This document shows positions 1 through 48,020 of a DNA stretch of 64,000 nt, piece by piece. The translations under genes and the position numbers were made by a program. This stretch comes from Chitinophagales bacterium. Lineage in GTDB: Bacteria; Bacteroidota; Bacteroidia; Chitinophagales; Saprospiraceae. The notes under the pieces were generated by a model. The model was not told where the DNA came from. It made no database searches and saw nothing but the letters and a program-made list of their open reading frames with translations. Position 1 is the stretch's first letter; every line of letters starts with the position of its first letter. The stretch covers positions 248,001 through 312,000 of the forward strand of contig JAAFJY010000002.1 in the NCBI GenBank assembly GCA_013299105.1, in the 5' to 3' direction.

Positions 1-1442
1 TACAGCAATTTGACCCTTTTGACGCCCCCACTGGTCGACTCAATTACTGGGGATATAGCCCCATTGCTTTTTTTGCTCCCCACAATGCTTATGCCGTCGA
101 CCAGGATCCAATTGCCGCAGTCGATGAGTTTCGAGACATGGTCAAAGCCCTGCACCGGGCCAATATCGAAGTGATTCTCGATGTGGTGTTCAACCACACA
201 GGTGAAGGAGATGAAAATGGCCCCACCCTTTCACTCAAGGGGTTGGCCAATCGCAGTTACTACATTTTACAGAATGAGCCCCGATTTTACAAAAATTTCA
301 GTGGTACGGGCAATACCTTGAATGCCAACCACTCGGTGGTGCGCAGAATGATTCGGGATTGCCTGCGCTATTGGACCTCGGTGATGCACGTGGATGGCTT
401 CCGCTTCGACTTGGCTTCGGTTTTGAGCCGCGACAGCGATGGTGCGCCCTTGAAAAACCCACCACTGCTTTGGGAGATCGAATCGGATCCCGTTTTGGCC
501 TCTACTAAACTCATTGCCGAGGCCTGGGATTTGGAATTGTACCAAGTCGGAAATTTCATCGGCGAACGTTGGGCGGAATGGAATGGGCCGTTTCGCGACC
601 AGGTGCGGGCCTTCATCAAAGGCGATTCGGGGCATGTGGGTGCTTTGGCGCAGCGCTTTTTGGCCAGTCCGGACTTGTTCAACACCAAAGAGCGCAATCC
701 CAATCGCAGCATCAATTTCTTCTCTTGCCACGATGGCTTCACCCTCAACGACCTGGTTTCATACAACGAAAAGCACAACGAAGCCAATGGCGAGAACAAC
801 CGCGACGGCCACAACCACAACCTGAGCTGGAATTGCGGTGTAGAAGGCCCTAGTCAAGACCCCATGATCGAAGCCACTCGCTTGCGGCAGTGCAAAAACT
901 TTTTCAGCATTTTGCTCTTGTCACAAGGCACGCCTATGCTCTGGATGGGCGATGAAGTACGGCGTACCCAATTGGGAAACAACAACGCTTACTGCCAGGA
1001 CAGCCCCATTTCTTGGTTTGATTGGACGGCTTTGGAACGCGAAAAAGACATGCTGCGTTTTGTGCAGAAACTGATCCGCTTCAACCTCAGTTCTCCATAC
1101 AGCATGGAAAAAGCCTTCCTCAACAGCGATCGTACCGTATTGCGCTGGCATGGCATAGAGGCCACCAAACCCGATTGGAGCGACCATTCGCGCAGCTTGG
1201 CTCTGGTGTTGAGCAATCCAGAGTATGGACACGAACTCTACATCGCCATGAATGCCTTTTGGGAACCCTTGACCTTTGAATTGCCCCCGCCATTTGCATT
1301 CCAGGAAAGCGCCTGGCACTTGTACATCGACACCGCAAAACCCAGTCCTCAAGACATTGCTGAAGAATTCCCTGGAAAAAAACTCCAAAATGGCCATTAC
1401 ACCCTCGCCCCAAGATCGGTGGTGGTGCTAGTGGGCAAGTAA
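1..1442 (+). CDS. glgX: Glycogen debranching enzyme GlgX / isoamylase-type GH13 (5' truncated by window edge)
   Basis: Frame is open from position 3 (QQFDPFDAPTGRLNYWGYSPIAFFAPHNAYA...) into the listed ORF; GH13 motifs DVVFNHT, DGFRFDLAS, IAEAWD. Confidence 0.9.
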   Translation, partial: QQFDPFDAPTGRLNYWGYSPIAFFAPHNAYAVDQDPIAAVDEFRDMVKALHRANIEVILDVVFNHTGEGDENGPTLSLKGLANRSYYILQNEPRFYKNFSGTGNTLNANHSVVRRMIRDCLRYWTSVMHVDGFRFDLASVLSRDSDGAPLKNPPLLWEIESDPVLASTKLIAEAWDLELYQVGNFIGERWAEWNGPFRDQVRAFIKGDSGHVGALAQRFLASPDLFNTKERNPNRSINFFSCHDGFTLNDLVSYNEKHNEANGENNRDGHNHNLSWNCGVEGPSQDPMIEATRLRQCKNFFSILLLSQGTPMLWMGDEVRRTQLGNNNAYCQDSPISWFDWTALEREKDMLRFVQKLIRFNLSSPYSMEKAFLNSDRTVLRWHGIEATKPDWSDHSRSLALVLSNPEYGHELYIAMNAFWEPLTFELPPPFAFQESAWHLYIDTAKPSPQDIAEEFPGKKLQNGHYTLAPRSVVVLVGK

Positions 1443-1729
1443 ACCTAGACCTTGAATTTGCTGTTAAAAAATGTGAATTTTGGTTTGTTCGGCATGTTTT
1501 TTTGACATACGATAGACGACTTACGACATAGGACTTACGATTTAGAGGCTCGCTGGAAAAACTTGTCGTGTTTAGGTTCTCGTTTGCACGGTTTGAGATC
1601 TTTGAAATTTAATATTGATCAATCCTTGCCTGTTCCCTGGAACCAATCATTGAAAAACAAGCTCTTTTATCCAGAACTCACGTTATTTGTAATGTAAAAC
1701 GCACCCAAGTCCACCAATTTTGCCCTGCC

Positions 1730-33345: not shown

Positions 33346-34041
33346 CTATTTTAACAAATTTGCCCAAGATCCGATCAAAGTGTCCTCGGCTTCATTCTTT
33401 TTCAAAGTTTCACAAAATTGGGTGCGCGGAATGGCTCTAGCCCCCAAACTCCCCAAATGCGGCGTTTCTTGTTGACAATCAATCAGCCAAAAATTCAATT
33501 TCCGTAGTTTTTGCACCAGGCTGATGAACCCAAACTTGGATGCGTTGCTGCGGCGGGCGAACATCGACTCGCCAAAGAAAACTTTACCCAAGGAAAGGCC
33601 ATACAAGCCCCCAACCAGTTCTTCACCCTCCCATACTTCAACCGAATGTGCAAAACCAGATCGGTGCAAAGTAGAATAAGCTGCGATCATGTCCTCTGTA
33701 ATCCAGGATCCGCCGCCTTGGCCAGGTCGGTACTGTTGCTGGCATCCGCGCATTACTCCTTCAAAATCTTGATCGAGGGTAGCTTTGAATTTTCCTTGGT
33801 TGAAGTAGGGGCGCATACTTTTGGCGACGACCAATTCATCGGGAAACAAAACAAAACGTGGATCGGGTGACCACCAAAGGATCGGGTCATCTTCATTGAA
33901 CCAAGGGAAAATCCCCAGTTGATAAGCATACAACAAACGCACTGGTGATAGGTCTCCGCCAATGGCCAGAACCCCTTCCGGGGTCGCTTGATCCGGAGAG
34001 GGAAAACTTATTTCATTGTCGTCTAGCCAAAAAACGGGCAT
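33346..34041 (-). CDS. aat: Leucyl/phenylalanyl-tRNA--protein transferase
   Basis: FPSPDQATPEGVLAIGGDLSPVRLLYAYQLGIFPWFNEDDPILWWSPDPRFVL. Confidence 0.95.
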   Translation of the reverse strand: MPVFWLDDNEISFPSPDQATPEGVLAIGGDLSPVRLLYAYQLGIFPWFNEDDPILWWSPDPRFVLFPDELVVAKSMRPYFNQGKFKATLDQDFEGVMRGCQQQYRPGQGGGSWITEDMIAAYSTLHRSGFAHSVEVWEGEELVGGLYGLSLGKVFFGESMFARRSNASKFGFISLVQKLRKLNFWLIDCQQETPHLGSLGARAIPRTQFCETLKKNEAEDTLIGSWANLLK

Positions 34042-34058
34042 AAAAAACAATCATTGAG

Positions 34059-34079
34059 TTATCCACACACTTATTCACA
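34059..34079 (+). other. Two perfect DnaA boxes (TTATCCACA, TTATTCACA)
   Basis: 34059-34067 and 34071-34079 in the aat/ctaA gap. Confidence 0.65.
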
Positions 34080-35163
34080 TTTTTGTTTCTTGGGGCTCTA
34101 CTAGTTGATAATTCAAGTACAAAACCACCGTCAGCAAGAGCAGTGCTCCTGCTTGATGGAATACGCCCAAGCCAACAGGAATGGTTCCTACACAGTTGAT
34201 TACGGTCAGAATTCCCAATAAAACTTGCAGCAAAGTTACTACCAATAAAGCATAAATTCCATTTTTAACCTGTTTTGTGACAGAAATTTGAACCCCTTTA
34301 AAAACATAATACAACACCATGATTGTCAAGGCGTAAGCAACACCTCGATGCAAGGTGTGTACCAAAGCGGGCATGAATGAGCTGCGATCGTATTCGTTAA
34401 AATTTTTACTATTCCATTCACCCCCATCAAACAAAATACCAGGAATCCATTGCCCCCCAATATCAGGCCAAGTAGGGAATACCAACCCTGCCTTCATTCC
34501 TGACATGATGCCCCCAAGGATGATCTGAAAGCCTAAAACATAAGCCAGCGCTTTTCCCCACTTTTTCAACCAATTCCTGTGGATAACTTGTGGATAAAAG
34601 GAAGAACCTTGCACGGTCGTAAGAAAAGTCCAAAACAAGTACCCATATACACACAACGCAATCGACAAGTGCATGGTTAGTTTATACGCATTGACCCAAG
34701 GTCTTTTGACCAATCCACTGGCAACCATGATCCACCCAAAAGATGCCGCGAGCGCCGCTAATAAGACCACAATTCCTAAGCGACGCATAAGCGCAGGATC
34801 AATCCACCCCTTGCGCCAGAAGAACAAAAAGGGGATCAAAAAAACGAAGCCCATGCTGCGGGCCCACAAACGATGAAAATATTCCCAGAAATAAATAAAC
34901 TTGAAATCGGTCATGCTCATGCCCTCATTGATTTTTGCATACTGCGGAGTGGCCTTGTACAAAACAAAAGCTTCTTGCCATTGCGCGGCATTGAGCGGCG
35001 GCAAAGTTCCCGTTACGATTTCCCATTTGGTAATGGACAAACCAGAACCTGTAAGTCGGGTCACGCCTCCAATGACTACCTGCATAAAAACCATAAATAC
35101 GCCAATGAATAGCCAAATTTTGACTGTGGCGGGATATTTTTTCGCTTGGTTTGTTGTTTCCAT
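34075..35163 (-). CDS. ctaA: Heme A synthase (COX15/CtaA family)
   Basis: FMQVVIGGVTRLTGSGLSITKWEIVTGTLPPLN; eight predicted TMs. Confidence 0.92.
   Translation of the reverse strand: METTNQAKKYPATVKIWLFIGVFMVFMQVVIGGVTRLTGSGLSITKWEIVTGTLPPLNAAQWQEAFVLYKATPQYAKINEGMSMTDFKFIYFWEYFHRLWARSMGFVFLIPFLFFWRKGWIDPALMRRLGIVVLLAALAASFGWIMVASGLVKRPWVNAYKLTMHLSIALCVYGYLFWTFLTTVQGSSFYPQVIHRNWLKKWGKALAYVLGFQIILGGIMSGMKAGLVFPTWPDIGGQWIPGILFDGGEWNSKNFNEYDRSSFMPALVHTLHRGVAYALTIMVLYYVFKGVQISVTKQVKNGIYALLVVTLLQVLLGILTVINCVGTIPVGLGVFHQAGALLLLTVVLYLNYQLVEPQETKM
34578..34597 (-). other. Two perfect DnaA boxes (TGTGGATAA x2) within ctaA
   Basis: 34578-34586 and 34589-34597. Confidence 0.5.
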
Positions 35164-35253
35164 TTTTCTCACTTGCTTCTTACCCAGGTCTTCCTCCTAG
35201 GGATTACAAAGATAGCCTCTTTTGCGACTTGAAAAATTTTGGGCTTGCCCCTT

Positions 35254-35727
35254 ATGGTTAATTATATTGATTTTAAATTTCAATAAATTCATCCTTCATC
35301 GTCGTCAGTGATGTGAGTTTGTGGAAAAAAAAGTGAATAAAAATTTGTTTGGGTTTATACTCACATCACATTGAGTTTACCCACAGTTTACCAACAACTG
35401 AAAGTGCTGTGGATTCAAGATTTTGCCAGTTTATGCACAAGCTGTTGGTACGTTATTCAGGGGATAACTTTTTTTGGCGCACTTGTTGGGAGAGCGTTAA
35501 ACTAACACCCCAAAAAGGGGCAAAAGCCCTTGTTGCAATGTGGAAAACTGGGGATAAGTCGCCCCTGAACGATGACAAGTGAGGGAATGTGGATAAAGTG
35601 CTACTTATTAAGCGTGAGTTCACAAAAAGTATGTTGAAAAGCGGTTTAGCTAAAAGCCTGAAAGTGAAGCAGTTTTTTGAAAATCCCAAAAATCGAGTGT
35701 GGATAAATACTTGTACATCGTGGATAA
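35254..35727. other. Candidate oriC: AT-rich stretch plus DnaA-box cluster in an ORF-poor intergenic region
   Basis: AT-rich 35254-35292; perfect TTATNCACA at 35431-35439 (+), 35588-35596 (-), 35698-35706 (-); one-mismatch boxes at 35332-35340, 35377-35385, 35540-35548, 35549-35557, 35719-35727; inverted repeat GTGATGTGAGT/ACTCACATCAC (35308-35318/35359-35369). Confidence 0.65.
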
Positions 35728-35767
35728 AAAAATGAGGCTTCAAAAAATTGGGTACAATGTGGAGCCA

Positions 35768-36547
35768 TTATTCAGCCTCACGCTCCTCAATTCCCAACCC
35801 AAACAAGGCAAAGTCGTATTTGACCGGATCCTGGGCGTCAAACTGCCTCAAGTTTTCGGTCAATTCCAGCACCGCTTGCCAGTCGCTTTGCTTGCGTTCC
35901 AATAATCCATAGCGCCTAGCGATGCGATCCACGTGCACATCCAGGGGCATGAGCAATTGGGCAGGACTAATGTTTTGCCAGCAACCAAAATCTACCCCAT
36001 GTCCATCTTTTCTCACCATCCAGCGCAGGAACATGTTGATGCGTTTGCAAGTAGAATTGCGCAGTGGGGTGGGCAAATGTTTGCGGGTGCGCTGCGGCGC
36101 ATCGGGCAAGCTGAAAAACAAATCGTGAAAACCAATCAGTGCTTCGGAAATATCTGGGCTATTGGGCTTTAAAAATTGGGTAAAAGCCGACTCTAGGCTT
36201 TCGTACTGTCGGTAGTACTGTTGTAGAAAGGTCAAAAAATACGCGGTATCGGTGGAGTTGAAGGTCCGGTGCTTGAAAAGTGCCAGTCGTTCTCGGTCTT
36301 CGGGCCGGTGGTTGAGGATGAAATCATAAGGTGCTCCGTCCATGAGTTCGATCAACTCCAGGGCTTTGTTGATGATGGTTTTGCGCTGACCCCAAGCCAA
36401 GACAGCCACCCAAAAGCCCATGATCTCGATGTCTTGTAATTGTGAAAAACCATGCGGAATGGCGATGGGGTCCGATTCGATAAATTTAGCTTGGTTGTTG
36501 CGTTGTACGGCTTCGTCCAGGAATTGTTTCAGTGCGGCCTTGTTCAT
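35768..36547 (-). CDS. TIGR02757 family protein
   Basis: DPIAIPHGFSQLQDIEIMGFWVAVLAWGQRKTIINKALELIELMDGAPYDF ... KRINMFLRWMVRKDGHGVDFGCW; ATGA overlap with recX. Confidence 0.88.
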   Translation of the reverse strand: MNKAALKQFLDEAVQRNNQAKFIESDPIAIPHGFSQLQDIEIMGFWVAVLAWGQRKTIINKALELIELMDGAPYDFILNHRPEDRERLALFKHRTFNSTDTAYFLTFLQQYYRQYESLESAFTQFLKPNSPDISEALIGFHDLFFSLPDAPQRTRKHLPTPLRNSTCKRINMFLRWMVRKDGHGVDFGCWQNISPAQLLMPLDVHVDRIARRYGLLERKQSDWQAVLELTENLRQFDAQDPVKYDFALFGLGIEEREAE

Positions 36548-37035
36548 GTTTTCAGTATTTGCCAAATCAGATCGGATTCAAAGCCTCGGCGCAGGGCATA
36601 TTGGACCGCTTTGGCAGTCGCTTGAAATTCGCCCTCCGGGGCGTATTCCTCCAGTTTTTTTTGCAGCAAAACAGTGAGTACACCTAGGTATTCCTGCTCA
36701 TCAATTTCCTGCAAGCCTTTTTTGATACAATAAGCCGTGAGCTGGCGTTGCTTCAGTTCTTGTTGGATGCGAACCCGGCCCCAGTTTTTGGTGCGAAACT
36801 TCCCGCGGGCATATGACTGGGCGAAGCGCTCTTCATTTAGAAAATTGTCGTTGATCAAATCGAGAATGACCTCTTCCAAGGTGTCTCCATAAACCCCCAA
36901 GTCCAACAACTTTTGCCGAACTTCTTGGTGGCAACGCTCTTGGTAAGCACAATAGCGCTGGAGTTTTTGCAAAGCAGCACTGCGACTTAGGTATTTTTTC
37001 TCCATGTAAACTTTGTATGGTTTTTGCACAAACAA
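36544..37035 (-). CDS. recX: Regulatory protein RecX
   Basis: ALQKLQRYCAYQERCHQEVRQKLLDLGVYGDTLEEVILDLINDNFLNEERFAQSYARGKFRTKNWGRVRIQQELKQ. Confidence 0.92.
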   Translation of the reverse strand: MFVQKPYKVYMEKKYLSRSAALQKLQRYCAYQERCHQEVRQKLLDLGVYGDTLEEVILDLINDNFLNEERFAQSYARGKFRTKNWGRVRIQQELKQRQLTAYCIKKGLQEIDEQEYLGVLTVLLQKKLEEYAPEGEFQATAKAVQYALRRGFESDLIWQILKT

Positions 37036-37095
37036 TGTAACGATTGCCGTAAATAAAACGTTTATTATCTTAATTTCGCAAGATAAAACCCAAAC

Positions 37096-37920
37096 ATGGA
37101 AACGAGCAATGAATTGCTGGCAAAAGCTAATAAGCTATATGATTTTGCCATTGATAACGGCCCCAAAGTTATTGGTGCTATTGTTGCCCTACTAATCGGC
37201 TTGTGGATGGTCAATCGCCTAATCAAGTTAATGCAAATGCGCATGAACAGCTCTCAAGTTGACGAGAGTTTACAGCCTTTTTTGTTGAGCTTGACCAATG
37301 TGATGCTGAAAACCTTTGTTATTTTGTTTTCAGCGGGAATTTTGGGGGTGCAAACCGCTTCAATTTTGGCCGTATTGGGTGCAGCGGGTTTTGCGGTAGG
37401 TTTGGCTTTACAAGGCAGCTTGGGTAATTTTGCTTCAGGTATTTTGATTTTGCTTTTCCGACCTTACAAGGTGGGTGATCGCATTACGGTGCAAAACTAT
37501 ACTGGGGATGTCAAAGAAATTCAGATTTTCACCACGATCATGCACACCCTCGACAACCGGGTGGTAATCATTCCCAATTCTACCATCACCAGCGGACCGA
37601 TTGAAAACCTGAGTTCAGCAGGAGAAAGGCGATTAGAAACCCAAGTGAGCATCCACCCTAAAACCGACCTTATGCTGGTGCGCGAAATCCTGGAAATAAG
37701 CGCCAAAACCAGCCCCGGATACCTGGCCGAAAATCCCATCGAATCGCCCGTGTTAGAGGTAAAACCGGATGCGGTAATTTTGGCCTTTCGTTATTGGGTA
37801 AACCCAGATTTGTACGAAGAAGCCGCAGCACACGCCAAAGAATCGGTACACCAAGCTTTCAAAAAAGCAGGTATTGAGATCGACGAAGATGATACCATGC
37901 AAGTGAAAATGGTCAATTAA
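37096..37920 (+). CDS. mscS: MscS-family small-conductance mechanosensitive channel
   Basis: LAVLGAAGFAVGLALQGSLGNFASGILILLFRPYKVGDRITVQNYTGDVKEIQIFTT. Confidence 0.92.
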   Translation: METSNELLAKANKLYDFAIDNGPKVIGAIVALLIGLWMVNRLIKLMQMRMNSSQVDESLQPFLLSLTNVMLKTFVILFSAGILGVQTASILAVLGAAGFAVGLALQGSLGNFASGILILLFRPYKVGDRITVQNYTGDVKEIQIFTTIMHTLDNRVVIIPNSTITSGPIENLSSAGERRLETQVSIHPKTDLMLVREILEISAKTSPGYLAENPIESPVLEVKPDAVILAFRYWVNPDLYEEAAAHAKESVHQAFKKAGIEIDEDDTMQVKMVN

Positions 37921-47576: not shown

Positions 47577-48020
47577 TTATCGGGTGCGGGTAGAATGCAT
47601 TTGCACCAGCCACCATTTTCCTTTTCGGCGTTCTAGAATCACACTTTCCAACCAACGCACGCTTTGCTGCTTGCCGTCGGGTTGGTGGAAAATACCCGTG
47701 TTCCAATAACTGGCCCAAGCGATGTTTTTCCGAAAATTGAATTGGATGAAGCGGAATTTATTTTCGCGGTTATAAGGTTTAGGATATTTGCTGGTGTAAG
47801 TGCGAATGCTGTCCACATTCCAGACCAGGCCCACATCGTAAAGCTCAAAATCTGGGGTGCAAGTTTTATCCACATACTTCATGTCATGTTGTGAAAAAAC
47901 CTGGAAGAATTCGTCCACGATGGCTCGGACTTGGGTTGAGTCGATGCCGCCGGATTTTTGGGAGTAGCCATGCGTAGCAAAAGTGAAGAAAAGCAGGAGG
48001 GCGCTGATTAGCTTGGTCAT
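47577..48020 (-). CDS. Hypothetical secreted SnoaL/DUF4440-like protein
   Basis: Signal peptide then IVDEFFQVFSQHDMKYVDKTCTPDFELYDVGLVWNVDSI...RWLESVILERRKGKWWLVQMHSTR. Confidence 0.65.
   Translation of the reverse strand: MTKLISALLLFFTFATHGYSQKSGGIDSTQVRAIVDEFFQVFSQHDMKYVDKTCTPDFELYDVGLVWNVDSIRTYTSKYPKPYNRENKFRFIQFNFRKNIAWASYWNTGIFHQPDGKQQSVRWLESVILERRKGKWWLVQMHSTRTR

Follow-up and report, generated by a model that had tools for sequence, protein, structure and literature searches.

The ctaA locus of this Saprospiraceae bacterium raises the question of whether a dense group of DnaA boxes that does not lie next to dnaA is the place at which the chromosome begins to replicate. Within the window, a stretch of 64,000 nucleotides (C12:248001-312000, on a 464-kb contig of the window genome), an earlier, sequence-only reading had taken positions 34059-35727 to be oriC. 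This proposal is supported by features that we observe directly, namely the boxes themselves, their conserved positions, an unstable AT-rich block and, in the closed relative G282, a position at the sampled skew minimum and across from dif, and we hold it to be very probable that 34059-35727 is the chromosomal oriC of this Haliscomenobacter-like bacterium.

A cluster of DnaA boxes in and around ctaA

Seven perfect DnaA boxes, 9-mers of the form TTATNCACA, lie within 1.65 kb on both strands (34059+, 34071+, 34578-, 34589-, 35431+, 35588- and 35698-), each exactly where the sequence-only reading had placed it, and an eighth perfect match in the window is found at 47866. Shuffled whole windows contain a mean of 2.05 TTATNCACA matches, with a maximum of 7. 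The genome, a draft in 77 contigs, carries 186 matches in 7.67 Mb and, at this background, approximately 0.04 perfect boxes would be expected in 1.65 kb where seven are seen; the Poisson probability of at least seven in 1648 bp is ~2.4e-14 per place and ~2e-7 after multiplication by all genome positions. This puts DnaA-box density at 34059-35727 well above background, as is characteristic of an oriC. Among the TTATCCACA sites listed, near-completely for the window genome and completely for its closed congener G002, never more than two occur within ~2 kb elsewhere.

Four of the seven perfect boxes fall outside the gap between ctaA and the TIGR02757 gene, one pair being located within ctaA and the other in the ctaA/aat spacer. 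The gap itself (35172-35767) was said to hold at least five one-mismatch boxes and in fact holds seven (35320, 35332, 35355, 35377, 35539, 35549 and 35719); its sole reading frame is 96 aa long with a TTG start. The features of the locus are as follows.

33346..34050, minus strand: aat (leucyl/phenylalanyl-tRNA--protein transferase), above the NCBIfam cut-off; next after ctaA
34059..34079, plus strand: DnaA-box pair in the ctaA/aat spacer, TTATCCACA and, 12 bp on, TTATTCACA, which overlaps the stop codon of ctaA
34075..35172, minus strand: ctaA (heme A synthase), the conserved origin neighbour, whose family homologs lie beside box clusters
34578..34597, minus strand: double DnaA box TTATCCACA-AG-TTATCCACA, 11 bp apart, within the ctaA coding sequence
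35250..35299, no strand: AT-rich element, proposed DNA unwinding element on the basis of low stability and conservation
35320..35328, minus strand: near-box TTTTCCACA, nearest the AT-rich element; congeners have TTCTCCACA
35377..35385, plus strand: near-box TTACCCACA; congeners align TTATGCACA or other boxes or near-boxes
35431..35439, plus strand: DnaA box TTATGCACA; congeners have TTGTCCACA or TTATACACA
35549..35557, minus strand: near-box TTATCCCCA, unchanged across the five genus members
35588..35596, minus strand: DnaA box TTATCCACA; congeners have TTATACACA, TTATGCACA or TTATCAACA
35698..35727, minus strand: DnaA box TTATCCACA (35698) and near-box TTATCCACG (35719), on the TIGR02757 side
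35768..36565, minus strand: TIGR02757/DUF2400 gene, far-side origin neighbour in the window genome only

The names ctaA and recX denote best matches that fall under the NCBIfam model cut-offs; for ctaA this is NF045570 heme A synthase at 231.8 bits, under the cut-off of 550 of an alphaproteobacterial model. Outside the window and ~50 kb from the origin, the same contig also carries two perfect TTATCCACA boxes on opposite strands, 24 bp apart (G000:C12:333805-333837).

An unstable AT-rich element adjoins the boxes

The AT-rich run described in the sequence-only reading is present at 35250-35299 and is the least stable stretch of the gap at both 30 bp and 50 bp, its 30-bp instability being matched by only four loci in the 464-kb contig. 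It is among the best conserved blocks of the genus gap alignment, and in each of the four congeners the corresponding block has the lowest 50-bp stability of the entire locus. Computed stability and conservation thus both identify the adjacent, easily melted element that is expected of an oriC. The 11-bp inverted repeat GTGATGTGAGT/ACTCACATCAC (35308/35359), noted alongside it, does exist but shows no conservation across the genus alignment, and we have dropped it as a component of the origin.

A DnaA-trio, taken as at least three YTD triplets just after a box following the published consensus (PMC8235120), gave two matches against 2.3 expected, neither of them in the window, so a basal unwinding system of box plus DnaA-trio is not what is found here. 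As these repeats are not above chance, strand opening may differ from the Bacillus type.

Box positions are retained across the genus

The genus set comprises the window genome and four congeners, among them the closed genome G002, whose chromosome of 8,371,686 bp has the same length as that published for Haliscomenobacter hydrossis DSM 1100 (PMC3156403). Five of the 94 TTATCCACA sites in the complete G002 listing lie at C1:3803591-3805701, right at the ctaA homolog, and form the strongest TTATCCACA cluster of that genome. Each of the five genus genomes has five to seven perfect boxes at the ctaA locus, and all share the same layout: the gap contains boxes, the spacer has boxes or near-boxes, and ctaA carries a double box (34578..34597 in the window; a single box stands there in several other genera). 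At the spacer pair (34059..34079), all four congeners have boxes or near-boxes at the same spot, and counterparts in other genera stand ~+1076/+1088 from the ctaA start. In the gap, alignment shows that the places of the boxes are retained while the box variant differs; the box at 35698 corresponds to a perfect box in G002.

The double box inside ctaA falls in a variable loop of the CtaA protein. The residues V-I-H that underlie one of its boxes recur in some CtaA proteins, and they are coded by the box-forming GTT ATC CAC in four of ten cases, against 4% expected from codon use. This codon choice suggests selection on the DNA, and we go no further than that, since the cases are few and the sequences, being related, are not independent.

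Location relative to dif, GC skew and dnaA

Besides G002, a second closed chromosome is available from G282, whose 4,345,237 bp we take to be the size of Saprospira grandis strain Lewin. Sites for dif were sought with a pattern based on those of E. coli and B. subtilis and are putative here; according to a survey, it was with the proteobacterial profile that most dif sites of Bacteroidetes had been predicted (PMC3025954). The exact 19-mer ATAATTTATATTATGTTAA is present in 35 of 101 family genomes, as a single copy in 34 of these 35, while its reversed-pattern control has no match, and the flanks of the putative sites have a wider motif in common. In G282, dif lies at C1:4164112, giving arms of 2.11 and 2.23 Mb to the ctaA cluster (48.6/51.4%), and in G002 at C1:59172, with arms of 3.75 and 4.63 Mb (44.7/55.3%). 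The cluster is therefore roughly opposite dif in both closed chromosomes, as would be expected of an oriC.

The GC skew, which had been named as a check on the proposal, agrees in G282, where the cluster is at the sampled minimum, and is ambiguous in G002, where it is at one of two near-equal minima. In G282, sampled in 20 stretches of 20 kb, the raw minimum falls at 1.96-2.16 Mb and so encloses the cluster, which is at 2.05 Mb; codon correction moves the minimum one sample further on, and gene strand bias switches at the cluster. In G002, sampled in 60 stretches, cumulative skew peaks near 8 Mb/0 and has near-equal minima at 2.6 and 3.8 Mb, with a square-wave fit that is best at 2.6 Mb and not at 3.8 Mb. 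The 2.6 Mb point is without a TTATCCACA cluster in the complete listing, and an origin there would give arms of ~30/70% to dif; an inverted segment at 2.6-3.55 Mb would explain the second minimum. The window genome is a draft in 77 contigs, and its own skew was therefore read from just two of them. On C12, the cluster (282-284 kb) falls within a broad low of the codon-corrected cumulative skew that extends from 270 to 370 kb, whereas the raw curve is lowest at 167 kb.

The smaller replicons of G002, which are plasmids, carry one dif-like site each (C2:35075, C3:57648 and C4:92043), in which the outer halves are retained and the centre differs (ATAATTTTTCTTATGTTAA or ATAATTTTTGTTATGTTAA); these are possibly dimer-resolution sites. 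One of these plasmids also has a double DnaA box TTATCCACATTTTATTCACA (L170, C2:47058-47077), possibly an element of the plasmid origin.

That the origin would not be next to dnaA was part of the original proposal, and it is borne out: an oriC adjoining dnaA is not what we find. The window genome has one DnaA (PF00308) match, on contig C6, and just one box lies close to it; in five relatives the 1.5 kb on either side of the main dnaA match, or as much of it as the contig includes, is free of perfect boxes. In the closed records dnaA stands at position 544 (G002:C1) and 617 (G282:C1), only 59 kb and 182 kb from dif, respectively, which places the initiator gene close to the terminus; in both, the two chromosomes in which this can be checked, the cluster is about half a chromosome from dnaA. 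Both records start at dnaA, near the terminus as judged by dif and skew, and their ‘position 1’ is consequently the wrong end. For the control of initiation it is unusual that the gene of the initiator should be present at low dosage and distant from the site on which the protein acts.

Conservation across the Saprospiraceae and neighbouring genes

Conservation of the cluster in relatives, likewise named as a check, was found in all five genus members, in G282 and, judged by where the boxes lie, across a further 80 ctaA loci. G282 has ten boxes in ~0.33 kb, located 0.5-0.85 kb upstream of ctaA. Thirty family ctaA loci (117 kb, the window genome and G002 included) contain 92 boxes against eight for reversed-pattern controls. 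Measured from the ctaA start, the 80 loci have 91 boxes against seven controls at -500..0, 31 against none at 500..1000 and 22 against one at 1000..1500; density is low outside these three peaks, which coincide with the three places that carry boxes in the window. In 24 of the 80 loci there is no perfect box in the kilobase upstream of ctaA, and many distant family members have just 0-2 there.

As for the gene context, the proposed order aat-ctaA-ori-TIGR02757-recX holds on the ctaA side and in its separation from dnaA, but its TIGR02757-recX side is peculiar to the window genome. The aat gene keeps its place throughout the genus and in some other Saprospiraceae. Across the gap from ctaA, the four congeners, G282 and most closer relatives have a divergent SRAP gene (PF02586), seen with a single SRAP query in at least 30 of the 73 ctaA loci with enough upstream sequence, and the only SRAP gene of the window genome is on contig C21. 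No relative examined has TIGR02757 adjoining the origin; in G002, TIGR02757-recX-mscS are kept together at 7.72 Mb, away from the ctaA cluster. We also rejected the TIGR02757 side as a conserved origin marker, with two boxes against four controls in 30 relatives' loci. Gene order thus indicates that the general family context is SRAP-ori-ctaA, with TIGR02757 as an apparent local replacement in the window genome. The TIGR02757-recX-mscS block occupies 35768-37920 of the window, and its G002 counterpart is ~0.7 Mb from dif; its place beside the origin would reflect a major rearrangement that broke at the edge of the origin or, with lower probability, an artefactual join in the assembly.

Alternative explanations

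Clusters of DnaA boxes that are not origins, such as datA and DARS, exist in Escherichia coli, and the cluster could be such a reservoir or reactivation site, or a DnaA-controlled ctaA promoter, with the origin elsewhere. The presence of some boxes within ctaA and the second G002 skew minimum at 2.6 Mb would fit this reading, but the listings of G002 and, near-completely, the window genome hold no other TTATCCACA cluster of equal strength, the G282 cluster is both at the skew minimum and opposite dif, and a conserved AT-rich element adjoins the boxes; we consider it improbable. Far less credible still is that the boxes are an artefact of chance or composition, or a leftover of coding constraint on ctaA. 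Two boxes do lie in coding sequence and V-I-H recurs under one of them, but reversed-pattern controls are near zero at the same loci, the double box occupies a variable CtaA loop, GTT ATC CAC codes V-I-H in excess of expectation (4/10 versus 4%, in related sequences), and for the gap boxes position-specific conservation refutes this explanation.

An origin at dnaA, with clusters and skew both misleading, has precedent on its side, since in ~60% of 568 chromosomes surveyed oriC adjoins dnaA and lies close to the switch in skew (PMC2275245), and the closed G002 and G282 records start at this gene. Against it stand the scarcity of boxes (one near dnaA here and none in the five relatives), the proximity of dnaA to dif and the cumulative skew of G002, which is at or near its maximum there, and we give it almost no weight. 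We thus return to oriC at 34059-35727, and propose the following as its probable mechanism. DnaA would bind the strong boxes that lie upstream of ctaA in the gap, its loading assisted by the flanking paired boxes, of which one pair is in ctaA and the other in the ctaA/aat spacer; it would then open the AT-rich element at 35250-35299. Helicase would load at the opened element, where replication would initiate and two forks depart. A broader generalisation, to which we assign about even chances, is that across the Saprospiraceae dnaA is fixed near the terminus while oriC is anchored at SRAP-ctaA, the origin extending through ctaA with working boxes in the coding sequence.

Comparison with known origins

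The locus is very probably an oriC of a familiar type, placed at a gene landmark that the family conserves. It shares with the origins of Escherichia coli, Bacillus subtilis and Helicobacter pylori the clustered TTATNCACA boxes in both orientations and the adjacent AT-rich, unstable element, as well as, seen in a relative, a place at the skew minimum and opposite dif. It differs from them in its neighbours, which are ctaA and SRAP (TIGR02757 in the window genome) rather than dnaA or gidA, in the spread of its boxes over 1.65 kb and partly within ctaA, and in having no DnaA-trio above chance. More than one group of boxes with a gene between them is also found in the bipartite oriC of B. subtilis and of H. 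pylori (oriC1/oriC2), but there the separating gene is dnaA, whereas here it is ctaA. The Synechococcus origin, which is near dnaN, likewise does not have dnaA as its neighbour (PMC2275245); in the two closed genomes here dnaA is, in addition, near the terminus.

In the literature we found nothing specific on oriC of Saprospira or other Saprospiraceae, or on an origin near heme A synthase, although DoriC may already have a prediction for the closed genomes. SRAP and ctaA together provide a gene landmark for oriC in the family, which is of use when draft genomes are closed, oriented or analysed for growth rate.

An order-wide search for double boxes returned mostly isolated pairs. Three very dense clusters, none of them adjoining ctaA, were nevertheless observed in members of another family of the Chitinophagales: 17 DnaA boxes lie beside an ssb-like gene (L164) and 16 beside a NUDIX-type gene (L165), both neighbours being named from their translations, and a further locus (L166) has eight. 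These are candidate origins with different neighbours.
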